From NCBI GenBank assembly GCA_947631405.1, contig CANRLC010000025.1, positions 1-33,258 on the forward strand: a stretch of 33,258 bases of DNA, in the 5' to 3' direction. The DNA comes from an uncultured Clostridia bacterium. GTDB lineage: Bacteria; Bacillota; Clostridia; Christensenellales; Aristaeellaceae. Below are positions 19,129 to 32,671 of this stretch, in pieces. The translations under genes and the position numbers were made by a program. Every line of letters begins with the position of its first letter. Within the stretch, counting starts at the first letter, position 1. The notes under the pieces are model-generated. The model worked only from the letters and a program-made list of their open reading frames with translations, did not search any database and was not told the origin of the DNA.

Positions 19129-19173
19129 TGTCAAAAGGAGCAGAAAATAATTGTTAAGATTTGCTTTTTGAAG

Positions 19174-19202
19174 TTGACAAGGGCGCACAGGCGTGGTAGA
19201 AT
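19174..19202 (+). promoter_or_regulatory. Sigma-A promoter of the adhesin operon
   Basis: TTGACA (19174-19179) and TAGAAT (19197-19202) are separated by 17 bp in a short A+T-rich stretch. It lies about 520 bp upstream of the adhesin start. Confidence 0.78.
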
Positions 19203-19208
19203 ATCCCA

Positions 19209-19721
19209 TAGAATTAAGGTGGGTGGATTCTCTGAAGAAGTAATTATATAAAAATATACAATTCTTCAGAGAGGCCCCAAAACAGACCGACCGAAAGGAG
19301 GGTGAAGCGACGGACGTGGACATGAGCTGTCAAAGTGCGAAGAAATCCTGCTGTCGCTTGACTTTCTTCGACAGGAGGCCGCGAACAGACCAAGGTCTGT
19401 TCGGAACGGGGCCGGGAAGATCTCCCGCGTGGGACGACGGCCCGTCCCCGGATCTATCCTCCGGGTTCCCGGCGGCGCGAACGACGCGCGGCATATGAGG
19501 TTCCCCGGGAAAGGCTGCCAGCGCCAAAGCTGAGCCAACGCAGACCATCGGTCTGGGCACGATTGATGGAACCCCTCATCCCGTCGCTGACGCGACAACG
19601 GCATCCCGAACGGCGGCGCGCCGTTCCATCCCAAGCCCGCGCGCGGCGCGGCATTCCAACAGCAACGCAATCGACCGATCATAAACCGACACAACATCAC
19701 GACACAAGGAGGAACCGAGCT
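19209..19721 (+). promoter_or_regulatory. Long structured 5' leader of the adhesin operon
   Basis: About 510 nt between promoter and ribosome binding site with no convincing gene but many strong hairpins. An 11-bp perfect stem (19229-19239 with 19262-19272) has an A+T-rich loop. CTGTC plus GAAGAAA (19327-19345) pairs with TTTCTTCGACAG (19363-19374) with one bulge. Others are GAACAGACC/GGTCTGTTC (19383-19402), GGGACG/CGTCCC (19431-19448), TTCCCGG/CCGGGAA (19466-19511), CAGACC/GGTCTG (19541-19555) and GAACGGC/GCCGTTC (19608-19626). I could not match it to a known riboswitch class. No T-run terminator is present, so translational control or RNA stability is more likely than attenuation. Confidence 0.6.
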
Positions 19722-22700
19722 ATGAAGAAATGGGTTTCCACGCTGTTATCCATTCTGCTTCTGCTCAACAACTTCGTCACCCCCATTTCCGCCATCGCGG
19801 AAACGACGGCTGACGAGCAGCAGACGCCCGTCGTCGAGACGCTCGACGGCGAGGAAGATGCGTCAATCCCCGAGGAGACCGGGTCGGATGCGCCCGACGA
19901 AGAGGATGACGCACCCGCCGTCGTGCTCATCGACGGCATCGACGTCATCGAAGAGCTGGACGGGAACGGCGATTCCGCCGACGAGACCGTCCAGACAGGC
20001 GAGGAGAGCGAAGACGAAGGCGACGCTTCCAATTATAGCGCGTTCGTTTCCGGCTACGCCTATACCGCCGCGAGCTGCGACGTGTATGACAACTTCGATC
20101 TCGCCGACGACGAGCTGGCCGCCCATGTGATGGGCACCCTCGAAGCCGGGCAGCTCGTTTACGCCATCGATCGCTACGGCGACGGCGTCTCCGACGACGA
20201 CTGGATGCGCATCGCGTTCGCCGTCGAGCAGGACGGCGTGATCGACTTCGCGCAGGTCTACGTTCCGGTCAGCAGCCTGAACGCCGTGCCCGCCGAGGAG
20301 ACCGACGCGCTGAAGGCCGAGCTGGCCGCCGCCGACAACGCCGCCAGCTTTGACGGCAAGCCGCTCACCCCCGCCGCTTTCTCGCTGAAGATCGCCGCCC
20401 CCGCGGCCGACGACCAGCAGGCGGACGAGGAGGAGGAGGAGGATACCTCCGGCGACGTTCCCGCGCCGCTGCCGCCCGTGGCGACGGTGTATGAATTCGC
20501 CTGCGGCCTCGAGGCCCACACCCATACCGAGGCCTGCTACAACGAGGCCGGAGAACCGACCTGCGGTCTGGTCGAGCATGTTCACGACGCGAACTGCCTC
20601 GCCGCCGCGCAGTTTGAGCAGCCCGAAGAGCAGCCCGACTATCACTGGGAAGAGGAAGAGCCGACCCAGTCCGAGGAGACGGCTGAGCCGATCACCGAGC
20701 TGCAGACCCAGTGCGGAAACAGCATCATCACGCTGACCGCCGACCCGGGCGTCATCCCCGACGGCGCGGAGCTGGTCGCGTACCCCGTGGACGATCCGCA
20801 TGTGATGATCAGCATCTTCCAAGCGGTTCCCGCGGGCATGGATCTTGAATCCTATGCCGCCTACGACATCAAGCTGCTGGTGGACGGCGAAGAGGTCGAG
20901 CCGAGCGATGACGTTCATGTGGAGATCACCAACGCGATCTCGACCGTGAGCCTGTTCAGCGCGAACGTGAACGAAAAGCAGACCGTGGTCTTCCACATCA
21001 GCGACGAGGGCGCGATCCCGATGACCGGGCTTCGCGACGTGACCTCGACCGTTCGCTTCGATGCGCCGCACTTCTCCATCTACGCGGTGGCGGTGTTCAC
21101 GCTCAAGACGGTGGATGGCACGCAGAATGGCGAACGCGTCAAGCTTCCTCCTATTGAGGAGTATTATCAGACGAAGACCAAGAACGGCCATATCAAGGTC
21201 ACCATTGATGGTCATGAGGAGGACATCGACCTCAATTCTCCGGCGTTTGACTTCCACATCTTTGCCGACGAGGCTTCGCTGAACCAGCACACCAATGGTA
21301 ACGTTGCCGCCAATGTGCTGCACGGCAACGGCATAAACTTTGGCAACAATCAATACAAGAATAGCGGCTTCGATCAAGAGGTTTACATTGGCGAACGCGC
21401 CGACGGACTTGGCAGTATTGCGGGTGGCGGTCGAGTCATCATTGGCAGCACTGTGTATTGGACGGAGGTCGATAACGGGAACCATGTGGCGATTGGCACC
21501 GCAGCGGTCGCTTATCAGGATGGTAAGCCCGGCTATTGGAAGGACGGCCAATGGGTTGAGATTACTGACTGGAGCACCTATAAACAGGCTTCTGATAGAA
21601 TGTACACGAACGACGTTTATCAGGAGCAGGCAGGTTATGGGCGATACCTCGACATCGAGGCAGAACTTGGCAAGCTGTCTGATACTTCCAAGAAGCTTGC
21701 AAACGCCACAGTGACTGATGGCGTAAAGGTTGAGCAAGACGGCACGGATACCTTCCGGCACAAAATCGACACAAAGGGCAAGGGCGACGTCGTCATCGTT
21801 GATATCGTCGCCAGCAAGTACACGACTACCGACATCTTCAATGTCTGGACTGAGCCGGGCCAGACGGTTGTCATCAACGTCGATGTGACGAACATGAAGG
21901 ATCTGTCCCAGTGGGAGTCGCATCTCAACGGTTTGGGCAACGCCGAAAACTCGATCTACTACGACTGCAACCTCATCTGGAACTTCTACACGAAGGACGC
22001 CGCGAACAATAAGGTACCGTGCGCCGACGAACTCAAAGTTGGCAGCGGCAACGGCTTCTTTGGCACCGTCCTTGCGCCGGATTCCGATCTGGTCAGCTAT
22101 GGCGCTATCAACGGTACCGTCATCGGCAAGAAGACCCATCAGAACGGCAACGAGTCTCACCAGATGTTCTTCCACACCGGCAACTCTGCGCGGTACACGG
22201 TCAACAAGCAGTTGATCGACGACCCCAGCGCCGGGAAGAAGACCTTCTACTTCGCGCTGTTCTACGATAAGGAAGGCACGAACCGCGTCAAGGATTCGCC
22301 TGTCGTGGCGGTGGATGTCATGCCGGGCGAGACGGCGGGTGCGTACTTCTACGATCTCGACGAGCAGTACTACGTCTTTGAGACGGACGCGTCCGGCAAC
22401 CGCATTACCGGCGGCAACTACGCTATCGGCGGCAACGGCGGTACGCTGGGCGGAAGCAAGACGGAGACCACGATCGTCAACAGCCACAAGGCCGCTTATG
22501 CGCCGCAGGTACACAAGACGGTCATCGGCGCGGTTGACCCGAACAAGGTGTTTGAGTTCGTGCTGACGGACGGCAAGGGCTACACAGACACCGCGGAGGT
22601 AAAGGGCGCCGGTACGGCGAGCTTCAAGACGATCGAATACGACACGGACGGCACATACACATATACGATCAAAGAGACCGCTGGAGACGACGACGGCATC

Positions 22701-25700
22701 ACCTACGATCGGGGCACATGGACTGTGACCGTTAAGGTCGCTAAGAATGACGGCAAGCTTAGCATCGCGAGCGTGAATTACGCGTACAGCGCGCCTGACA
22801 GTGAGCACACGGCGAGCGACTATGCTGAGTTCGTCAACAGGGGGCCGGAGAAGGACGAGGCGAGCTTCGAGCCGAAGGTCGAGAAGATCGTCGAGGCTGC
22901 GCCGGGCAGCGCCATTCCGGACGAATTCAGCGCGAAGTTTGACTTCACGTTGACGCTGACGGCGGCTAAGCCTGAGAGCGGCGTCGATATGAAGATCGGC
23001 GACACGAAAGAGACGTTTGTGACTTGGACAAAGGACGGCCCCAATGAGGCGGCGACCTTCGGCGAGGTCAAGTTCACGGAGGCCGGCGAGTACACCTTCG
23101 AGATCAAGGAGAAGAAAGGCGACGTTAAGAACGTCACCTACAACACCGATCCGCAGACGATCACGGTCAAGGTCGAATCCAAGGATGGCAAGCTGACCGC
23201 GACTGCGGACCCGGTCAGCGCGAAGGTGACGGTCACGAACACCTACGAGGAGCAGAAGGCTTACTTCACGCCGGGCGTGGAGAAGGTCGTTACCGGCCCT
23301 GTGCGTGACGACGAGAAGAATAAGACGTTCACGTTCGACCTGACCTGCGAACCGAAGACCGGTGTGACGCTTGGCAACACTCATGTCGTGGTGAACGAAT
23401 ACGACAAGGTATTCAACTTCGGCGAAGTGACGTTCACGCAGGAGGGCGAATACACCTTCACGATCACTGAGGTGAAGCCCAATCCTGTTCCCAAGGGCTG
23501 GACTTATGCCGAGCCGCAGACGATCACGGTCGTCGTGGCGCCGGGCAAGGACGGCAAGCTCGAGGCCAAGGTGAAGGACGACGGCGTCGCCTATGTGACG
23601 GCGGTGAACACCTACGAGCGTGCGGACGGCAGCCTCACGTTGAAGGTGAAGAAGAACGTGACCGGCCCCGTGAGCAAGGCTGACGAGGATAAGGAGTTCA
23701 CGTTCGAGCTGACGGCGGATGCCAGCAATCCTGCCGGCGCGACGCTGCCTGACAATACCACGGTTACGGTGACCGCGAAGGACGACGCGAAGGCTTTCGG
23801 CGACATTGAGTTCACCGAGCCGGGCGTGTATAAGTTCACGATCACTGAGGTGAAGCCCGAGCCTGTTCCCAATGGCTGGACATACGCCGAGCCGCAGACG
23901 GTGACGGTTGAAGTGACGGACGTTGGCGGCAAGCTCGCGACGAACTACACTGACGACACCTACACCGTGACGGCGGTGAACACCTACGGCCACGAAGACG
24001 GCGGCTTTGAGCTGGGCGTGAAGAAGAGCATCACCGGCCCCGTGAGCGCGGACGCGAAGGATAAGACGTTCAAGTTCACGTTGAGCGCTGTTGATGGCAA
24101 TCCTGCCGGCGCGACGCTGACCGGGCAGACCACCTTGGAGGTAACGGCGGACGGACAGCCTGCGTACTTCGGCGGCATCGAGTTCACGGAGGCGGGAACG
24201 TACAAGTTCACGCTCGCCGAGGATAAGACTGGCGAGACCGCTGGCTGGGATTACTTCGACGACAAGACCATCACGGTTGAAGTAAAGGACGTTGACGGAA
24301 AGCTCGTTGCCACAGCTGACGGTCAGGCTTCCCCGTATGTCGTGACGGCGGTGAACGACTACGAGCGTGCAGACGGCAGCCTCACGTTGAAGGTGAAGAA
24401 GAACGTGACCGGCCCCGTGAGCAAGGCTGACGAGGATAAGACGTTCACGTTTGAGCTGAAGGCGGACGCCAACAATCCTGCGGGCGCGACGCTGCCCGAC
24501 AATACCACCGTTACAGTGACCGCGAAGGACGACGCGAAGGCTTTCGGCGACATTGAGTTCACCGAGCCGGGCGTGTATACGTTCACGATCACCGAGGATA
24601 AGACCGGCGAGACCGATGGCTGGCATTACTTCGAGGGTGAGACCATCACGGTCGAAGTGACGGACGTTGGCGGCAAGCTCGCGACGAACTACACTGACGA
24701 CACCTACACCGTGACGGCGGTGAACACCTACACGACGACGGAAGCCAGCTTCACGCCGAGCGTGGAGAAGGTTGTCACCGGCACAGCCCCGACGAAGACG
24801 TTCACCTTCCAGTTGAAGGACGAGAACGGCAACGTGCTCGGCACGGCGACGGTGAACGGCGAAGGCACGGCGAGCTTTGAGCCGCTGACCTACGCGACGA
24901 CGGGTACGTTCAACTACACCGTGAGCGAGGTTGCGGGCGACGATGCCGGATTCACCTACGACACGACGGTCTACAATCTGGCCGTGACCGTTGAGGATGT
25001 GGGCGGCAAGCTTGAGGCGACGGGCGTCTACAACGCAGACCCGGCGATCAAGGCTGCGAAGTTCACGAACGAGTACACGACGAAGGAAGCGACGGCTGAC
25101 TTCCCGTTCGTGAAGACGATGCAGGGCCGCGACTTCCAGACGGGCGACAGCTTCACCTTCACCCTGAAGGCGCTCACGAATCCCGCGCCGCTGCCTGAGA
25201 AGACCAGCGTGACGCTGGAGCCGACGGAAGGCCATGAGATCGGCGGCACGTTCGGCACGGCCACCTACACCGCTGTGGGTGGGTACGACTACACGATCAC
25301 CGAGGAGAAGGGCACGGCTAAGGGCGTCACCTATGATGGAACGACTTGGCGCGTACATGTGGAAGTGACGGACAACGGCGAAGGCCAGCTCGTCGCGACC
25401 ACGACCTTCAACGACAAGGAATCCGAGGTGGGCGCGCAGTTCACCAACACCTACACCTACTCCGACGACCCGACCATCCAGCCGGGCGTGAGGAAGACGC
25501 TTGACATCGTCGGCGGCGACAAGGCGCCGGAGGATCTGACGTTCACCTTCACGCTGACGGACGAGAACGAAGACTCCACCGGCATGGTGATGCCGCAGCA
25601 GACGGAGATCACCGTCAAGGCGACCGAGCTTGTGGACAACAAGGACTGGACGGAGAAGTTCGGCGAGATCGCCTTCCACAAGGCTGGAACGTACACCTTC

Positions 25701-27818
25701 ACCATCAAGGAGACGGCGGACGAGAGCAACACCAACGTCACCTATGATAAGGGCACTTGGACGCTGACCGTGGAAGTTGTGGAGAACGACGTACACGCGC
25801 TGGAGATCAAGAGCCATGTGATGGCGAAGGACGGCACCACGCCCGAGACGCCGGACGCGCTGGATGCGGTCTTCGCGAACACCTACACGACGACGGAAGC
25901 CAGCTTCACGCCGAGCGTGGAGAAGGTTGTCACCGGCACGGCCCCAACGAAGACGTTCACCTTCCAGTTGAAGGACGAGAACGGCAACGTGCTCGGCACG
26001 GCGACGGTGAACGGCGAAGGCACGGCGAGCTTTGAGCCGCTGACCTACGCGACGACGGGTACGTTCAACTACACCGTGAGCGAGGTTGCGGGCGACGACG
26101 CCGGATTCACCTACGACACGACGGTCTACAATCTGGCCGTGAGCGTTGAGGATGTGGGCGGCAAGCTTGAGGCGACGGGCGTCTACAACGCAGACCCGGC
26201 GATCAAGACGGCGACCTTCACCAACACCTACGAGGCGGCTCCGACCGACTACACGCCGGAAGTCGAGAAGGTCATCAAGGGCGAGAACCCGCCGGAGGAT
26301 GAGGTCTTCATCTTCAACCTGATCGACAGCGACGGGACGATCATCGACACCGTGCGGCTGTACGGCGCCGGTAAGACCTCGTTCGATCCCATCCATTACG
26401 AGGCGGCCGGAACCTACAACTACTCGATCGTCGAGGTCGATAACAAGACCAACAACTGGACGTTCGACGACACCGTGTACGGCCTGACCGTTGTGGTCAC
26501 CGACGTGGATGCCAAGCTCACCGTGAGCGCCGTGTATATGCTGAACGGTGCGCCCGTGCCGGATAACGGCATCGCGACCTTCACCAACACCTACACGCAG
26601 AGCGACACGAGCCTGGCGATCGGCGGCATCAAGCGCATGGCCGGCCGCGACTTCCAGCAGGGCGACACCTTCACCTTCACGCTGAGTGCGCAGACGGAGA
26701 ACGCTCCGATGCCCGCCCAGACGAGCGTGACCGTGACGCCTGCAAGCGGCAACGAGGTGGCGTACAGCTTCGGCGAGATCACCTACGATGCGGTCGCGAG
26801 CTACACCTACCGGATCACCGAGACCGCGTCCAACGCGATCGAGAACGTCACCTACGACACGACCGTGTGGACGGTCACCGTGGACGTCGTCCGCAACACG
26901 GACAACACGCTCACGGCGAACGCGACCTACACCTCTAACGCGACCGACGGCCGCCGCGCCGGTGAGTTCGTGAACACCTACACGATCCCCGAGATCGAGT
27001 ACGTCACGCTCGGCGGCACCAAGACCTGGGTCGATGATGGCAACTCCGCCGGCGTGCGGCCCGCGGCCATCGAGGTTGTGCTCTACGCGAACGGCGTGCC
27101 TCAGGGCAACGTCCCGACGTGGAGCAACACCGACAGCGACGTGTGGAGCTACTCCTTCGCCAACCTGCCCGCGACCACGGCGGACGGCACGCGCATCGTG
27201 TACACCGTGACCGAGACGCCTGTGCCGCTGTACGAGAGCACGCAGGACGGCATGAACTTCATCAACCGCCTCATCCCGCGCGAAGAGGTCGAGTACACCA
27301 GCGTGTCCGGCACCAAGCATTGGGATGACAGCGACAACGCCCGCGATGTCCGCCCGGCGTCTGTGACCATCGAGCTGCTGCGCAACGGCGAGGTCATCGA
27401 CCAGAGGACGGTCTCCGAGGCGAATGGCTGGAACTACTCCTTCACGAACCTGCCCACCGGCGACGGTTACGGCACCGCCTACACCTACGAGATCCGCGAG
27501 CAGATGGTGAGCGGTTACTACACGGTGTACGAGGGCTTCGACGTGACCAACGTCGAGCTGCCGACGCCTGTGCTGCACAGCTTCACGCCGGGTCAGGGAC
27601 AGTTCGTCTCCCGCCAGCGTCCGAACTTCGAGACGTACACCGAGGAAGAGCTGGAAGACCTGATCGACCTGTTCGACTATGGCGTACCTCTGTTCGGCAT
27701 GCTGCTGGGCACCGGCGATGAGACGCCGCTCTATCCGTTCGTCTTCGGCGGTGTCGGCGTGATCGCGCTGGCTGCGGCGCTGCTGATCGGCCGGAAGAAG
27801 AAGGCGAAGGCGCAATAA
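19722..27818 (+). CDS. Giant sortase-anchored repeat adhesin
   Basis: 2698-residue predicted surface protein. Order: signal peptide (1-~27), acidic spacer, SH3-like segment (~104-187), Cys/His motif CGLEAHTHTEACY...HVHDANC (~260-297). A choice-of-anchor-A-like head follows (~508-823; FDFHIFADEASLN, TNGNVAANVLHGN, then GFFGTVLAPDSDL and INGTVIGKK). Next come a CnaB-like linker (~826-924) and about twelve Spy0128-like repeats of ~110-140 residues (~925-2423), each with a xxK(x)VxG strand, an acidic residue in Y(T/N)(I/V)xE and a terminal xNTY. Such Lys/Glu/Asn sets form intramolecular isopeptide bonds in known pilins. Two CnaB domains (GTKTWVDD, GTKHWDDS) end at ~2617. The sorting signal is LLGTG (2661-2665) plus a hydrophobic helix and RKKKAKAQ. 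The ATG at 19722 follows AAGGAGG. The ligand is unknown. Confidence 0.9.
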   Translation: MKKWVSTLLSILLLLNNFVTPISAIAETTADEQQTPVVETLDGEEDASIPEETGSDAPDEEDDAPAVVLIDGIDVIEELDGNGDSADETVQTGEESEDEGDASNYSAFVSGYAYTAASCDVYDNFDLADDELAAHVMGTLEAGQLVYAIDRYGDGVSDDDWMRIAFAVEQDGVIDFAQVYVPVSSLNAVPAEETDALKAELAAADNAASFDGKPLTPAAFSLKIAAPAADDQQADEEEEEDTSGDVPAPLPPVATVYEFACGLEAHTHTEACYNEAGEPTCGLVEHVHDANCLAAAQFEQPEEQPDYHWEEEEPTQSEETAEPITELQTQCGNSIITLTADPGVIPDGAELVAYPVDDPHVMISIFQAVPAGMDLESYAAYDIKLLVDGEEVEPSDDVHVEITNAISTVSLFSANVNEKQTVVFHISDEGAIPMTGLRDVTSTVRFDAPHFSIYAVAVFTLKTVDGTQNGERVKLPPIEEYYQTKTKNGHIKVTIDGHEEDIDLNSPAFDFHIFADEASLNQHTNGNVAANVLHGNGINFGNNQYKNSGFDQEVYIGERADGLGSIAGGGRVIIGSTVYWTEVDNGNHVAIGTAAVAYQDGKPGYWKDGQWVEITDWSTYKQASDRMYTNDVYQEQAGYGRYLDIEAELGKLSDTSKKLANATVTDGVKVEQDGTDTFRHKIDTKGKGDVVIVDIVASKYTTTDIFNVWTEPGQTVVINVDVTNMKDLSQWESHLNGLGNAENSIYYDCNLIWNFYTKDAANNKVPCADELKVGSGNGFFGTVLAPDSDLVSYGAINGTVIGKKTHQNGNESHQMFFHTGNSARYTVNKQLIDDPSAGKKTFYFALFYDKEGTNRVKDSPVVAVDVMPGETAGAYFYDLDEQYYVFETDASGNRITGGNYAIGGNGGTLGGSKTETTIVNSHKAAYAPQVHKTVIGAVDPNKVFEFVLTDGKGYTDTAEVKGAGTASFKTIEYDTDGTYTYTIKETAGDDDGITYDRGTWTVTVKVAKNDGKLSIASVNYAYSAPDSEHTASDYAEFVNRGPEKDEASFEPKVEKIVEAAPGSAIPDEFSAKFDFTLTLTAAKPESGVDMKIGDTKETFVTWTKDGPNEAATFGEVKFTEAGEYTFEIKEKKGDVKNVTYNTDPQTITVKVESKDGKLTATADPVSAKVTVTNTYEEQKAYFTPGVEKVVTGPVRDDEKNKTFTFDLTCEPKTGVTLGNTHVVVNEYDKVFNFGEVTFTQEGEYTFTITEVKPNPVPKGWTYAEPQTITVVVAPGKDGKLEAKVKDDGVAYVTAVNTYERADGSLTLKVKKNVTGPVSKADEDKEFTFELTADASNPAGATLPDNTTVTVTAKDDAKAFGDIEFTEPGVYKFTITEVKPEPVPNGWTYAEPQTVTVEVTDVGGKLATNYTDDTYTVTAVNTYGHEDGGFELGVKKSITGPVSADAKDKTFKFTLSAVDGNPAGATLTGQTTLEVTADGQPAYFGGIEFTEAGTYKFTLAEDKTGETAGWDYFDDKTITVEVKDVDGKLVATADGQASPYVVTAVNDYERADGSLTLKVKKNVTGPVSKADEDKTFTFELKADANNPAGATLPDNTTVTVTAKDDAKAFGDIEFTEPGVYTFTITEDKTGETDGWHYFEGETITVEVTDVGGKLATNYTDDTYTVTAVNTYTTTEASFTPSVEKVVTGTAPTKTFTFQLKDENGNVLGTATVNGEGTASFEPLTYATTGTFNYTVSEVAGDDAGFTYDTTVYNLAVTVEDVGGKLEATGVYNADPAIKAAKFTNEYTTKEATADFPFVKTMQGRDFQTGDSFTFTLKALTNPAPLPEKTSVTLEPTEGHEIGGTFGTATYTAVGGYDYTITEEKGTAKGVTYDGTTWRVHVEVTDNGEGQLVATTTFNDKESEVGAQFTNTYTYSDDPTIQPGVRKTLDIVGGDKAPEDLTFTFTLTDENEDSTGMVMPQQTEITVKATELVDNKDWTEKFGEIAFHKAGTYTFTIKETADESNTNVTYDKGTWTLTVEVVENDVHALEIKSHVMAKDGTTPETPDALDAVFANTYTTTEASFTPSVEKVVTGTAPTKTFTFQLKDENGNVLGTATVNGEGTASFEPLTYATTGTFNYTVSEVAGDDAGFTYDTTVYNLAVSVEDVGGKLEATGVYNADPAIKTATFTNTYEAAPTDYTPEVEKVIKGENPPEDEVFIFNLIDSDGTIIDTVRLYGAGKTSFDPIHYEAAGTYNYSIVEVDNKTNNWTFDDTVYGLTVVVTDVDAKLTVSAVYMLNGAPVPDNGIATFTNTYTQSDTSLAIGGIKRMAGRDFQQGDTFTFTLSAQTENAPMPAQTSVTVTPASGNEVAYSFGEITYDAVASYTYRITETASNAIENVTYDTTVWTVTVDVVRNTDNTLTANATYTSNATDGRRAGEFVNTYTIPEIEYVTLGGTKTWVDDGNSAGVRPAAIEVVLYANGVPQGNVPTWSNTDSDVWSYSFANLPATTADGTRIVYTVTETPVPLYESTQDGMNFINRLIPREEVEYTSVSGTKHWDDSDNARDVRPASVTIELLRNGEVIDQRTVSEANGWNYSFTNLPTGDGYGTAYTYEIREQMVSGYYTVYEGFDVTNVELPTPVLHSFTPGQGQFVSRQRPNFETYTEEELEDLIDLFDYGVPLFGMLLGTGDETPLYPFVFGGVGVIALAAALLIGRKKKAKAQ
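24723..25052 (+). repeat. Near-identical internal repeat, copy 1 (adhesin domain 7)
   Basis: This 330-bp stretch matches 25878-26207 at a constant offset of 1155 bp with only four differences by eye. It encodes the repeat beginning NTYTTTEASFTPSVEKVV. Confidence 0.9.
25878..26207 (+). repeat. Near-identical internal repeat, copy 2 (adhesin domain 10)
   Basis: Second copy of the 330-bp unit. The abrupt ends of identity and the in-frame spacing point to recent duplication or gene conversion. Domains 4 and 6 (from about 23613 and 24360) form a second, less perfect pair. Confidence 0.9.
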
Positions 27819-29197
27819 TGAACAAGGGACTCAAAGCCCTGCTGATCGTCGTCGCGCTGGCCTGCTTCGGGATCGCGCTCTCGTACCCGATACGGTACGA
27901 GATGCAGACCCGGAGCAACCAGCAGACGATGCAGCGGCTGTCAGACCTGCGTGAAGCGGGACTGCGCAGCGCGACGCAGGCATCGGCCCAGCCCGACGGG
28001 ACTGCGGCCCCTGCCTCGCAGGGCGGCCCTGTTACAAGCGACAAAACGTCTAAGGTAGAGACGGAGGCCGTTCCCGTTGAGGGGACGGCCCCGCCGATAC
28101 CTGCGGAAGATCGCGCGGAGGAGACCGCACGCGAGGGCGCAGAGGCCGCGCCGACGGACGAGACGTCGCCCGAGGCGGGCCGCACAGACGCGCCGGACGC
28201 GACGACGGCCCCCGTAGGAGGCAACGCCGAGACGGCTGTGATCGCCGCGCCGTTGGACGGCAAAGCGGCCTTGGACGGGAGCGTCACGCGCACGCCGGAG
28301 GCCCCGGCTTCCAACGGCGAGGACGCGCAGAAGGCGACGGCTTCTCAGGGCACGAACGCTTCGGAGGCTTCGGTGACCGATGGCGCAGGCGCGCAAAAGG
28401 CGACGGCTTCGCAAGGGGCGAACGCGCAGGCGGCATCGGCCTCTGAGAGCGCAGGTGCGCAGACGGCGGCAAGCGTCGCCCCCCCCGCGCCGACGCCGTC
28501 CCCGTCTCCGTCGCCCACCCCATCCCCGACGCCGGATCGAACCATCCGCACGGGGGCTTTGCCCTACACGCTCAAGGAAAAGGTCGAGCTGGACGAATCG
28601 CGCATCCTGCCGCAGTATCAGGAGCTGTACGCGCTCAACCACGATATGGTCGGCTGGATCACGGTGCAGAACAGCGACATCGACTATCCCGTCGTGCAGT
28701 GCGAGGACAGCGACTACTATCTCAAGCACGACTTCTTCGGCGAGGAGAACAAGAACGGCCAGATCATTCTGGATACGCTCTGCGATCCGTACACGCCGAG
28801 CTACAACCTCATCATCAGCGGACACAACATGAAGAACGAGAGCATGTTCTCTCGCCTCTACGAGTATTTCCGCTATAAGGAAGACTGGAAAAAGCACAAG
28901 TTCATCGAGTTTGACACGCTCATGGAGCAGCGGTATTATGTGGTGATCGCGGCCTTCTTCAGCGCCAATTACGACGAGGACGAGGAGGGCTTCCGCTACA
29001 ACACGGACATCCGCTACCGCGTGGACGCGGAACAGTGGCTCGACGAGGTGCGCACCTACCAGCTCTACGACACGGGCCTCGACGCCGGGTTCGGCGACGA
29101 GTTTCTGACGCTCACGACATGCAACAGTAACCGCAGGAAAAACGGACGTTTCGTGGTGATTTGCAGAAGAATCCGGGAAGGGGAGACGATCGAATGA
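27818..29197 (+). CDS. Class B sortase with long disordered spacer
   Basis: Membrane transpeptidase likely to anchor the adjacent adhesin to peptidoglycan. The 459-residue product has an N-terminal membrane anchor (~5-24) and a low-complexity Ala/Thr/Glu/Pro spacer (~45-220) with two (D/G)AQKATASQG(T/A)NA units. A Pro/Ser stretch PPAPTPSPSPSPTPSPTPD (~222-241) precedes the catalytic domain (~245-459). In that domain, His336 (SGHNMK), Cys435 (LTTCNS) and Arg444 (NGRFVV) form the sortase triad; DMVGWITV, IDYPVVQ and FFGEENKNGQIILD are class B features. Typical SrtB proteins are about 230-280 residues, so the spacer is unusual. The ATG shares its first base with the adhesin's TAA, so translation is coupled. 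It overlaps the next gene by 4 bp. Confidence 0.93.
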   Translation: MNKGLKALLIVVALACFGIALSYPIRYEMQTRSNQQTMQRLSDLREAGLRSATQASAQPDGTAAPASQGGPVTSDKTSKVETEAVPVEGTAPPIPAEDRAEETAREGAEAAPTDETSPEAGRTDAPDATTAPVGGNAETAVIAAPLDGKAALDGSVTRTPEAPASNGEDAQKATASQGTNASEASVTDGAGAQKATASQGANAQAASASESAGAQTAASVAPPAPTPSPSPSPTPSPTPDRTIRTGALPYTLKEKVELDESRILPQYQELYALNHDMVGWITVQNSDIDYPVVQCEDSDYYLKHDFFGEENKNGQIILDTLCDPYTPSYNLIISGHNMKNESMFSRLYEYFRYKEDWKKHKFIEFDTLMEQRYYVVIAAFFSANYDEDEEGFRYNTDIRYRVDAEQWLDEVRTYQLYDTGLDAGFGDEFLTLTTCNSNRRKNGRFVVICRRIREGETIE

Positions 29198-29988
29198 AAA
29201 AGCTGATCGCGCTGTTTGTTGCCCTGCTGCTCCTGTACGCCGTCCCCGCCAGTGCTGCGCAGTGGGCGGATGGCCGCAGCCCGCAGCAACCGTATCTCGG
29301 CGTGCCTGCCGTGGATTTCACGCAGACGCTCGGGTACATGATGTTTTATCCCAACGCGAAGATGGATGTCGGCACCGGCGTGCGCACGCTGTTCGTCTAT
29401 TTGCCGCGCGAGGACGTCTACGCCGGTTCCGGCGAGCTGACCCTGCGCACGCAGGAGGACAGGGACGCGTGGACGATCGCGTTCAACGACACGCAGTACG
29501 TCCACCAGCGCGAGATGGTCGAGGACGAGTTGGTCAGCATGCAGTGGGGCAGCGGCACCTGCTTTGAGATCACGCTGCCCGTGTCGGTGAAGATCGACCG
29601 CCATTACTACGTCGATCTGGCGCGCGACTGCATTATCTCAAACGACAACACGGTCAGCAACCCGGCGCGCGACGGCGAGGAGACGTGGTCGTTTGACACG
29701 AAGTCCGAATACGGCGTCAGCGAGATGTCCTACCGCCGCATGCTGGCCGACGGCAGCTACGAGGAGGGCATCGTGAACCCGCAGCCCGGCGACGAGATTC
29801 GCTTCGACCTCGTCCTCGGCGGCGAGGCCAAGACGGCGGCGCTCTTCCAGCTCAGCGGGGCCAACTTCACGACCGCCTCCTATACGGAGAGCGCCGAGGT
29901 AATCGGCTCCGTCACGGAGGACGACCCCGCTTGGGGCGTGCTGTTCCTGGATGCCTCGGGCAACCAGATCGCGCAGATCACGTTCTGA
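29194..29988 (+). CDS. Secreted protein of unknown function in sortase operon
   Basis: I do not recognise a family. The 264-residue product starts with a clear signal peptide (MKKLIALFVALLLLYAVPASAA, cleavage near residue 22). The rest is polar, apparently beta-rich, and has two Cys residues (in SGTCFEI and ARDCIIS), which could form a disulfide. There is no sorting motif, lipobox or second membrane helix, so it is probably released or held non-covalently. The ATG at 29194 follows GGGGAGA and overlaps the sortase stop by 4 bp, the last gene before a terminator. Its coupling suggests a job with the adhesin or sortase, such as assembly factor or ligand; this is inference. Confidence 0.8.
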   Translation: MKKLIALFVALLLLYAVPASAAQWADGRSPQQPYLGVPAVDFTQTLGYMMFYPNAKMDVGTGVRTLFVYLPREDVYAGSGELTLRTQEDRDAWTIAFNDTQYVHQREMVEDELVSMQWGSGTCFEITLPVSVKIDRHYYVDLARDCIISNDNTVSNPARDGEETWSFDTKSEYGVSEMSYRRMLADGSYEEGIVNPQPGDEIRFDLVLGGEAKTAALFQLSGANFTTASYTESAEVIGSVTEDDPAWGVLFLDASGNQIAQITF

Positions 29989-30000
29989 TGGACTTGCAAA

Positions 30001-30030
30001 GGGCCGGCGGCGCAAGCTGCCGGCCTTTTT
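30001..30030 (+). terminator. Rho-independent terminator of the adhesin operon
   Basis: GGCCGGC (30002-30008) pairs with GCCGGCC (30019-30025), with additional inner pairs, followed by five T residues. Confidence 0.92.
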
Positions 30031-30087: not shown

Positions 30088-30588
30088 ATGACAATAGAAT
30101 ATAGAAAAGCAGAGCTAAATGATATTGAAGAAATATGTAACATGGTTCATGATGCTGTAGATGTTATGGAGCGAGATCATATTTTCCAGTGGGATGATTT
30201 ATATCCCGCAAAAGGAGATTTTCGGAAAGATATTCAGAAAGGTCAACTTTTTGTTGGGCTAGTAAATGGGGAAATAGCGGTTATATACACCCTTAATCAA
30301 GAATGTGATAGAGAATATGAAAACGGTAAATGGAAATATATGGATGAGCCTTTTTATATCGTACATAGGCTTTGCGTGAATCCAACTTTTCAAAATGAAG
30401 GAATTGCTCATTCTACACTATTACATATTGAGAAGCAATTAAAGGAAATAGGCATTCATATCATTCGCTTAGATGTATTTTCAAATAACCCATTTGCATT
30501 AAGGCTATATCATTCTTTGGGTTATTTGAAAGTTGGTTATGCCGATTGGCGCAAAGGGAGATTCTTCTTGATGGAAAAGTGTTTTTAG
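30088..30588 (+). CDS. GNAT-family N-acetyltransferase
   Basis: Predicted acetyl-CoA-dependent acetyltransferase of 166 residues. Motif A is recognisable in VHRLCVNPTFQNEGIAHSTL, where QNEGIA matches the (Q/R)xxGx(G/A) pyrophosphate-binding loop; motif B is in LDVFSNNPFALRLYHSLGY. The start at 30088 follows GAGGA; a TTG at 30052 is unlikely. The gene is strikingly A+T-rich with AT-ending codons (AAA, GAA, ATA, TTT), unlike all neighbours, which suggests recent acquisition from a low-G+C Firmicute. No mobile-element remnants are visible. The acceptor substrate is unknown. Confidence 0.88.
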   Translation: MTIEYRKAELNDIEEICNMVHDAVDVMERDHIFQWDDLYPAKGDFRKDIQKGQLFVGLVNGEIAVIYTLNQECDREYENGKWKYMDEPFYIVHRLCVNPTFQNEGIAHSTLLHIEKQLKEIGIHIIRLDVFSNNPFALRLYHSLGYLKVGYADWRKGRFFLMEKCF

Positions 30589-30943: not shown

Positions 30944-32671
30944 ATGGAACTGATCACACTTGAAACCGCACTGAACACGGGCTGGATATTGCTCGGCGCG
31001 GCGCTGGTCTTCTTCATGCAGGCGGGCTTCGCGATGGTGGAGACGGGCTTCACCCGCGCGAAGAACGCGGGCAACATCATCATGAAAAACCTGATGGACT
31101 TCTGCCTCGGCACACCGATCTTCTGGCTGATCGGCTTCGGCATCATGTTCGGCGGCACGAGCAAGTTCATCGGCGGGCTGGATCTGTTCACCGACGCCGG
31201 AGGCGATTGGGCGACGCTGATCTTCCAGACCGTCTTCTGCGCGACCTCGGCGACGATCGTCTCCGGCGCGATGGCCGAGCGCACGAAGTTTTCCGCCTAC
31301 TGCATCTACTCGATGATCATCTCGGCGGTGATCTACCCGATCTCCGGCCACTGGATCTGGGGCGGCGGCTGGCTGGCGCAGCTCGGCTTCCACGATTTCG
31401 CCGGCTCTGCGGCCGTCCACATGGTCGGCGGCGTGGCGGCGTTCGTCGGCGCGGCGATCCTCGGCCCGCGCATCGGCAAATACGGCAAGGACGGCAAGGC
31501 GCGCGCCATCCCGGGGCACTCCCTGACGCTCGGCGCGCTGGGCGTGTTCATCCTGTGGTTCTGCTGGTTCGGGTTTAACGGCTGCTCCACCGTCGCCCTG
31601 ACGGGCGGCGCGGACGAGACGGCGGCCCGCGTCTTCGTGACCACGAACCTCGCGGCGGCGGTCGCGACGGTGACCGTCATGTGCGTCACATGGGTGCGCT
31701 ACAAGAAGCCCGACGTCTCCATGACCCTCAACGGCACGCTCGCGGGCCTCGTGGCGGTGACCGCCGGTTGCGACGTGGTGACGCCTGCGGGCGCGGCGAT
31801 CATCGGCATCGTCGCCGGGTTCGCGGTCGTCTTCGGCATCGAGTTCATCGACCAGAAGATCAAGGTGGACGATCCCGTCGGCGCGGTCGGCGTACACGGG
31901 TTGTGCGGCGCGCTGGGAACGCTGCTCACGGGCCTGCTTGCCTACTACACCGGAAACGACGTCACGCGGATGGGCCTGCTCTACGGCGGCGGGTTCCGCT
32001 TCCTCGGCGTGCAGGCGCTGGGCGTGGTCGCGGTTGTCGCGTGGGTCGCGGTGACGATGACGGTCGTCTTCACGCTGCTCAAGAAGACCATCGGCCTGCG
32101 CGTGAGCAAGGCCGAGGAGCTGATGGGCCTCGACAAGCCGGAGCACGGCCTGACGAGCGCCTACGCGGACTTCATGCCCGTCGTCAGCGTGCTCGGCACC
32201 GAGGCCGGGGAGGCGCAGGCGATCGCCGCGGTCGGCAGCGCTGCCGTCCCGCCCGAGGCGCCCGTCGAGCCGGCTAAGGCGGTTCCGGTCACGCGCGTGT
32301 CCGGCGAGGGCGCGCCGAGCATGCACAAGGTCGTCGTCATCACGCGCCAGTCGCGCTTCGAGGCGCTCAAGAACGCGATGAGCGCCATCGGCGTCACCGG
32401 TATGACGCTGACCAACGTCGCGGGCTGCGGCCAGCAGAAGGGCGCGGCGGAGTATTATCGCGGCGTTCCGGTCGATGTGATGCTCCTGCCCAAGATCAAG
32501 CTGGAGATCGTGGTCTCCGCCATCCCGGTGGAGAAGGTGGTCGATGCCGCGCGCAAGGCGCTGTACACGGGCCATATCGGCGACGGCAAGATCTTCGTGT
32601 ACGACGTGGCGGACGTGGTCAAGGTGCGCACCGGGGAACACGGCTTCGACGCGCTTCAGGACGAGGAGTGA
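30944..32671 (+). CDS. amt: Ammonium transporter fused to a PII signal domain
   Basis: 575 residues. Residues 1-~425 form an AmtB-type ammonium channel with about eleven helices: N-terminal QAGFAMVETGFTRAKNAGN, the family signature HDFAGSAAVHMVGG with pore His159, and VGVHGLCGALGT with pore His318. A flexible Ala/Pro linker leads to a C-terminal GlnB/GlnK-like domain (460-575) with GVTGMTLTNVAGCGQQKG, LLPKIKLEIVV and TGHIGDGKIFVYDVADVVKVRTGE. It aligns without gaps to E. coli GlnB over the first 58 positions; the uridylylated Tyr51 is replaced by Val510. Fusion implies built-in regulation of the channel by ATP/ADP or 2-oxoglutarate. The ATG at 30944 follows AAAGGGGA. Confidence 0.95.
   Translation: MELITLETALNTGWILLGAALVFFMQAGFAMVETGFTRAKNAGNIIMKNLMDFCLGTPIFWLIGFGIMFGGTSKFIGGLDLFTDAGGDWATLIFQTVFCATSATIVSGAMAERTKFSAYCIYSMIISAVIYPISGHWIWGGGWLAQLGFHDFAGSAAVHMVGGVAAFVGAAILGPRIGKYGKDGKARAIPGHSLTLGALGVFILWFCWFGFNGCSTVALTGGADETAARVFVTTNLAAAVATVTVMCVTWVRYKKPDVSMTLNGTLAGLVAVTAGCDVVTPAGAAIIGIVAGFAVVFGIEFIDQKIKVDDPVGAVGVHGLCGALGTLLTGLLAYYTGNDVTRMGLLYGGGFRFLGVQALGVVAVVAWVAVTMTVVFTLLKKTIGLRVSKAEELMGLDKPEHGLTSAYADFMPVVSVLGTEAGEAQAIAAVGSAAVPPEAPVEPAKAVPVTRVSGEGAPSMHKVVVITRQSRFEALKNAMSAIGVTGMTLTNVAGCGQQKGAAEYYRGVPVDVMLLPKIKLEIVVSAIPVEKVVDAARKALYTGHIGDGKIFVYDVADVVKVRTGEHGFDALQDEE

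Follow-up and report, generated by a model that had tools for sequence, protein, structure and literature searches.

In Streptococcus pyogenes, the class B sortase Spy0129 polymerises the pilin Spy0128 (PMC3019223), and the sortase B step in assembly of this group A Streptococcus (GAS) pilus requires SipA (PMC3019223, PMC4049620, PMC11987632), a protein with a signal-peptidase fold (PMC4049620). A pilus operon of Clostridium perfringens also encodes a class B sortase, which its authors call unusual (PMC8088525). The sortase B of Bacillus anthracis (SrtB) depends on residues that flank its pentapeptide on either side, with Asp at substrate position P5, Asp at P2' and Glu at P3' for full activity, and isolated catalytic domains of sortase B are far less active in vitro than SrtA (PMC11987632). 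Here we analyse a three-gene set in a stretch of 33,258 nucleotides (the window), which is the entire contig C25 (CANRLC010000025.1) in the genome of an uncultured Clostridia bacterium of the family Aristaeellaceae (2.28 Mb, 94% complete). The set encodes a giant repeat adhesin, a class B-like sortase and a third, secreted protein (29194-29988), for which we use the working name P3.

The set resembles the Spy0128-Spy0129-SipA system of S. pyogenes in that FctA/Spy0128-type domains, a class B sortase and an extra factor are encoded, SipA being the factor needed there for pilus assembly. In contrast to S. pyogenes, where a pilin is polymerised and SipA is signal-peptidase-like, the window encodes one giant multidomain substrate with the motif LLGTG and a long conserved segment in front of it (the pre-motif), and P3 is a secreted protein with two predicted immunoglobulin (Ig)-like domains. 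Like the pilus operon of C. perfringens VR-10B, the set is a clostridial operon for a surface fibre and includes a class B sortase of its own, but the VR-10B operon has three pilins (CnaA, FimA, FimB) and a signal peptidase, and no P3-like protein is named in the portion of the source available to us (PMC8088525). The IsdC-anchoring sortase B enzymes of Staphylococcus aureus and B. anthracis have the closest solved catalytic domains. The substrate in B. anthracis has DE after TG, where flanking residues are needed (PMC11987632), and the sorting signal in the window likewise has D and E at P2' and P3'. Unlike the sortase of the window, these enzymes use NPQTN or NPKTG on a haem-transport substrate, and the available sections of the source mention no P3-like partner (PMC11987632). 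A preliminary description of the locus had called it unusual for a class B sortase to accompany a Spy0128-type stalk; the precedents of Spy0129 and C. perfringens weaken this view, although the C. perfringens authors share it (PMC3019223, PMC8088525).

P3 belongs to the sortase and adhesin system

P3 is a genuine part of the sortase/adhesin system. We tentatively read it as a secreted accessory factor for sortase B that acts on the extended sorting signal of the adhesin, and put the chance of this reading somewhat below even. At E<=0.001, P3 was found in 40 of 300 genomes of the family (clear in 39), representing 12 of 50 genera. A survey of the order (396 genomes, including family members) gave a single match outside the family (G094, E 9.5e-19), on a 3-kb contig that is uninformative. 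The class (291 genomes) yielded just two matches, both partial (E 4e-5 and 1.3e-4), which we judged to be chance. A further 28 named loci, all from uncultured Clostridia (one titled Christensenellaceae, two Lachnospiraceae, and five with titles that name roe deer or sheep gut), largely repeat contigs of genomes already surveyed and were left out of the counts.

In total, 52 P3 loci were compared, 51 in the family plus G094; two weak places (G196:C53 and G010:C50) were left out. The order adhesin-sortase-P3 was found in 23 loci. Sortase-P3 occurred in 8 loci with no adhesin detected beside them and in 6 at a contig edge (L027 counted among these), adhesin-P3 without an adjoining sortase gene in 9, neither partner in 4 (one of them the 3-kb contig), and 2 loci were uninformative contig edges. 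Overall, a sortase gene adjoins P3 in 37 of the 52 loci and an adhesin alone in nine more, which agrees with the earlier view that the third protein belongs with the other two. Because the set recurs across genomes, a chance assembly of the three genes is excluded. The nine adhesin-P3 loci led us to reject the idea that P3 is a mere neighbour of the sortase. Two stand-alone P3 genes (L028, 8995-9849; L079, 5163-6062) lie, by eye, near rnf-like and after YidC/Jag-like genes; in both genomes the sortase is encoded at another site.

Overlap between the sortase and P3 genes was measured in 36 of the 37 sortase-P3 loci, L100 being omitted as its P3 is split. It amounts to 4 bp in 30 of these loci and to 1 bp in 3; in the other 3, the profile stopped short of the start codon. 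The spacing between adhesin and sortase varies across loci. On a tree of P3 with 48 rows (L032, L099, L100 and L096 omitted), the adhesin-P3 arrangement requires five changes, of which at least two are forced by well-supported branches. Gene order was therefore probably reshuffled more than once, with P3 remaining part of the system.

Genome counts point in the same direction, although the genomes are related and the counts therefore not independent. A profile of the adhesin C-terminus matched 71 places at E<=1e-15, of which 70 were in P3-positive genomes, so that 37 of the 39 genomes with P3 carried the sorting signal versus 1 of the 261 others. Sortases of one clade, whose limit was set by a tree (support 93/96, bootstrap not settled, the short piece from G237 omitted), occurred in 37 of the 39 P3-positive genomes (36 plus G237, as contig-edge pieces) and in 0 of the 261 P3-negative ones; a plain limit of 270 bits makes one of the 261 positive. 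The exceptions were G089 and G205 (70-72% complete), which have P3 without the adhesin signal, and G066 (83% complete) and G307 (P3 at contig ends), which have P3 without the sortase clade. G038 has the signal and no P3, and its contig breaks inside the apparent N-terminus of a sortase gene. In G075, adhesin, sortase and P3 lie on three separate contigs amid other genes; the co-occurrence is thus not just a matter of linkage. The preliminary description had considered that the third protein might occur mainly away from sortases, or that its adhesins might pair with unrelated, distant ones; instead, we found one signal and one sortase clade.

Furthermore, in the 21 loci where all three parts were long enough, pairwise distances of P3 follow those of SrtB (r 0.83, partial 0.60) more closely than those of the adhesin C-terminus (r 0.73, partial 0.23). 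This closer co-divergence with SrtB, together with the near-fixed 4-bp overlap (30/36), would also fit a protein that regulates or stabilises the sortase itself, for example by activating it or keeping it at secretion sites, and that does not read the substrate. We consider such a regulator improbable, because adhesin-P3 pairs without an adjoining sortase exist (9/52), P3 is tightly linked with the pre-motif, which is a substrate feature, and P3-less sister sortases have a similar catalytic domain.

The P3 protein family

P3 (29194..29988, + strand, as are all features of the set given below) is a protein of 264 amino acids with, by eye, a signal peptide (residues 1-21), no lipobox and no sorting motif. 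It had nothing near cut-off in Pfam or NCBIfam (best E 0.15 and 0.11, respectively), nor did these libraries give a Peptidase_S26 or signal peptidase match. A PDB sequence search returned nothing credible (best E 0.15), and the viral contigs searched held no P3 relative. An AlphaFold2 model (pLDDT 87) has two Ig-like domains, supported by VIA-align matches: domain 1 (residues ~45-171, 29326..29706) is an Ig/FnIII-like beta-sandwich, and domain 2 (residues ~172-264, 29707..29985), also covered by the alignment, is a beta-sandwich. Among the matches listed, the fold search gave generic Ig/FnIII domains in PDB and viral models, from which we deduced no function. The profile searches agree with the earlier statement that the third protein is of no recognised family. 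By sequence, P3 does not belong with the SipA-type pilus factors, as it lacks a signal-peptidase match and its model is Ig-like.

In an alignment of 13 sequences, the homologues are 33-45% identical to P3 and share the signal peptide, the two beta-domains (modelled for P3 only) and the invariant residues W24, P71, R72, D74, W118 and W165. The interdomain linker differs in length; it is expanded in L031 (11358-12590; about 150 extra residues), L095 and L076. No P3-like protein is named in the titles and abstract starts listed for papers on class B sortases, pili and accessory genes, and no literature was found that pairs sortases with Christensenellales or Aristaeella; absence of P3 from print is meant within that scope. 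What is new is the P3 family, which none of the searched libraries contains, together with its tight association with an extended sorting signal.

Sortase and adhesin

The sortase gene (27818..29197), identified as an open reading frame (ORF) with Pfam, NCBIfam and PDB matches, encodes 459 amino acids. An N-terminal hydrophobic segment (by eye) is followed by a linker of ~200 residues rich in Ala, Thr, Pro and Ser and by the catalytic domain (28559..29194). The protein exceeds the cut-off of Pfam PF04203, and His336, Cys435 (in the motif TLxTC) and Arg444 are invariant in an alignment of 10 homologues. In sortases, these three residues have catalytic roles. The class B model TIGR03064 was by far the best (E 1e-36), at 126.5 bits below its curated cut-off of 153.75; the homologue in L031 reached 138.2 bits. 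The best PDB sequence matches were SrtB of B. anthracis (E 2.5e-25), SrtB of S. aureus (4e-23) and 3psq (9.7e-15), which we take to be the structure of Spy0129. Both lines of evidence uphold the earlier class B assignment, with the nuance that the sortase is, judged from its sequence, class B-like and outside the curated TIGR03064 equivalog.

The adhesin gene (19722..27818; ORF, translation and Pfam) encodes 2698 amino acids with an N-terminal signal peptide (by eye). An array of 12 FctA/Spy0128-type domains (residues ~966-2421, 22617..26984) was recognised by Pfam (E 1.4e-201) and by TIGR03786, which matched 12 times. Of two CnaB stretches (Pfam PF05738), the best-scoring one covers residues 2528-2610 (27303..27551). 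The FctA stalk is not a hallmark of the system, and we rejected it as such: FctA-type domains were found in only 6 and CnaB-type domains in 29 of 32 P3-linked adhesins, that of the window included. An FctA stalk is not the usual partner in these systems.

The FctA/Spy0128-type domains and the pilus precedents of class B sortases (Spy0129; C. perfringens) raise the question whether the sortase links adhesin molecules covalently into a pilus, with P3 as a SipA-like assembly factor or minor pilin. Clusters of class C sortases and a signal peptidase in gut Clostridia (L021, L031, L072 and others) would also suit this idea, as they precede this adhesin-SrtB-P3 set in 14 of the 52 loci, with two class C-type sortases in each and a signal peptidase-type gene in 13. 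NCBIfam and Pfam matches confirmed the identities in L031, and L093 has one class C-type sortase and one signal peptidase-type gene. We nevertheless hold a pilus of this kind to be very unlikely here. No class C sortase was seen in the genome of the window (94% complete), the operon has no signal peptidase gene, and a simple pattern for a YPK-type pilin motif found none in the adhesin, where another lysine could still serve. Moreover, with 14 repeats the adhesin is long without polymerisation, and P3 is modelled as Ig-like whereas SipA has a signal-peptidase fold (PMC4049620).

The extended sorting signal

The end of the adhesin (DYGVPLFGMLLGTGDETP) has the architecture of a wall anchor in both sequence and alignment. 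The conserved pre-motif EEELEDLIDLFDYGVPLFG (residues 2641-2659, 27642..27698) was delimited in an alignment of 18 adhesin C-termini. It is followed by the sorting motif LLGTG (residues 2661-2665, 27702..27716; alignment and motif position) and by DETP, so that the C-terminus reads EEELEDLIDLFDYGVPLFGMLLGTGDETP, before a hydrophobic helix and a basic tail. Against the NCBIfam model TIGR01167 the adhesin scored 13.9 bits, under the cut-off of 15.9 bits; its motif is LLGTG and not LPXTG.

The consensus of the pre-motif, directly before the cleavage motif, is EEELEELxxLFDYGxPLWG. The element PLx[GSD], 1-4 residues before TG, was present in all 32 P3-linked adhesins. The same pre-motif was found in 4 of 4 unlinked adhesins read in P3-positive genomes; for the remainder of the ~38 such adhesins, the greater part of the pre-motif is covered by the profile match. 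In contrast, it was present in 0 of 5 sister systems (G160, G173, G236, G290 and the second of G338), which have the nearest sortases outside the clade and adhesins with [M/L]xTGD...P and a similar helix, and no adjoining P3. P3-linked adhesins without the pre-motif that the profile might have overlooked were looked for as well: a pattern for any sorting tail found none in the 12 adhesin-less P3 loci and recovered 30 of 31 positive controls. A model of the adhesin C-terminus (mean pLDDT 75, but 43-58 for the larger part of the stretch ahead of the membrane helix) hints, weakly, at a short helix amid low-confidence segments around the pre-motif.

Probable action of one sortase on several adhesins

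The genome of the window contains two adhesins with the signal, two P3 genes and one sortase of the clade; the second adhesin, cut by the contig start, and the second P3 are on contig C20. In other genomes the ratio is higher, with eight signal-bearing adhesins and one clade sortase in G229 and six and one in G193. It is therefore probable that one sortase acts in trans on several adhesins, which are often unlinked. With up to eight adhesins per clade sortase, the terms 'self-contained' and 'dedicated', used for the operon and its sortase in the preliminary description, are not supported.

Only two sortase matches were found in the genome of the window, the one described here and a distant one, similar to it, on contig C44 (L006, 4972-12999). 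The latter lies beside a surface protein of 2049 amino acids that has no Pfam match and beside an incomplete similar protein, which end in VPMTGDEAQP and VPMTGDDAQP; no P3 match was found in that stretch.

Possible role of P3

Co-occurrence, gene overlap, co-divergence and the link with the pre-motif all suggest that P3 acts at the sorting step. In general, a sortase cleaves its substrate between Thr and Gly and attaches it to the cell wall. By analogy, the adhesin would be secreted, its C-terminal helix would retain it in the membrane, the class B-like sortase would cut within LLGTG between T and G, and the cut adhesin would be joined to the cell wall. As a soluble factor for this step, P3 would be secreted with the sortase and would bind the pre-motif or present it to the enzyme, allowing proteins with the extended signal to be processed. 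The same sortase and P3 would also serve adhesins encoded elsewhere in the genome. Within this scheme we infer the cleavage, the wall anchoring, the action in trans and, for P3, both the direction of its effect and its physical contact with the substrate or the sortase.

A more specific version, which we regard as possible but doubtful, is that P3 is a secreted specificity factor that recognises the pre-motif together with LxTGDE and passes the substrate on to sortase B. Substrate choice would then be divided between the enzyme and a separate receptor protein, an arrangement that we think similarly doubtful and of which we know of no described example.

P3 might instead be a structural partner of the adhesin, that is, a soluble two-domain subunit that binds the anchored adhesin non-covalently at its tip, cap or base. 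The nine loci with P3 behind an adhesin and no sortase gene keep such a role in play. It would also suit G196, in which three adhesins each have their own P3 and the clade sortase is distant, and the genome of the window, with its two adhesins, two P3 genes and one clade sortase. P3 further lacks a sorting signal of its own (by eye) and has Ig-like domains in the model. Nonetheless, P3 stays one family while the ectodomains vary (FctA-type 6/32, CnaB-type 29/32), its distances track SrtB more closely than the adhesin C-terminus, 8 of the 52 loci are sortase-P3 with no adhesin detected beside them, and about half of the signal-bearing adhesins have no P3 neighbour. We consider a structural partner rather unlikely, yet worth keeping in view.

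Several of these observations, and some others, weigh against P3 as an accessory factor for sorting. The adhesin-P3 loci have no intervening sortase (9/52), the three adhesin-P3 pairs plus solo clade sortase of G196 fit an adhesin-bound subunit equally well, and Ig-like folds are equally common in structural subunits. Neither partner adjoins P3 in 4 of the 52 loci, and many signal-bearing adhesins are away from any P3 (70 places in P3-positive genomes, 32 P3-linked). The sortase clade has no score gap at its limit: its 36 members score at least 280 bits, the member G252 having 281, while the P3-less G338:C9 has 283 and the P3-negative genome G173 has 275, both placed outside the clade by the tree. 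Weaker signal matches occur at 12 places (E 1.4e-15 to 7.4e-4) in 10 P3-negative genomes and G338. The adhesin C-terminus is short and its distances are noisy, and the contrast between pre-motif and P3 may be a single evolutionary event. Finally, the adhesin profile was built from sequences with the pre-motif, and the pre-motif count is partly by construction. This last concern is limited by the any-sorting-tail control and by the weak matches, which show that the profile picks up tails lacking the pre-motif as well.

The accessory-factor reading concerns a defined and testable triad in uncultured gut Clostridia, consisting of a sortase B clade, an undescribed secreted protein family and an extended sorting signal. 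Should P3 indeed act as a cofactor that selects substrates, sortase B would have a factor with a fold unrelated to that of SipA, and P3 would bear on the weak in vitro activity of isolated sortase B catalytic domains.

Gene order and neighbouring genes

Adhesin, sortase and P3 are complete ORFs with zero internal stops in translation. The sortase gene shares 1 bp with the adhesin gene (TAATG at 27816-27820) and 4 bp with the P3 gene (ATGA at 29194-29197), which confirms that the three genes are real and form the overlapping operon described earlier. A promoter-like site (TTGACA-17-TAGAAT, 19174..19202; 11/12 in a consensus scan) lies 519 nt 5' of the adhesin start codon. The single promoter of the preliminary description was not established, as a second promoter-like site with the same score is located within the sortase gene (28911..28939). 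Downstream, a terminator-like hairpin is followed by a T run (30008..30022). These sites are consensus matches only and no evidence of function; terminator-like sites numbered 10 in the scan versus 10.1 in shuffles. The upstream promoter-like site has A+T-rich surroundings (35% G+C at 19130-19260). At gathering thresholds, Rfam gave no match across the window, and therefore none in the 519-nt stretch (19203-19721) between this site and the adhesin start.

The window contains neither the class C sortase/signal peptidase set nor a second set of genes seen in relatives. In 8 of the 52 loci (L023, L024, L027, L029, L066, L089, L093 and L097), some or all of transglutaminase-like, PilC/GspF-like, small pilin-like, DUF4860 and PilT-family ATPase genes, named after those in L027, adjoin the adhesin-sortase-P3 set; in L029 they are on the other strand. 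A possible link of sortase display with a type IV pilus-like machine is suggested in those relatives. In L138, a transglutaminase-like gene lies in front of an adhesin that has the extended signal.

Upstream of the adhesin lie infC/rpmI/rplT-like genes (by eye). Downstream of P3, a GNAT acetyltransferase gene (30088-30588) is placed between the terminator-like site of the operon and an ammonium transporter gene. Its G+C content is 34%, compared with 64% for the contig, and it is probably a recent arrival. The ammonium transporter (30944-32671) has 575 amino acids, with a P-II regulatory domain fused at its C-terminal end.

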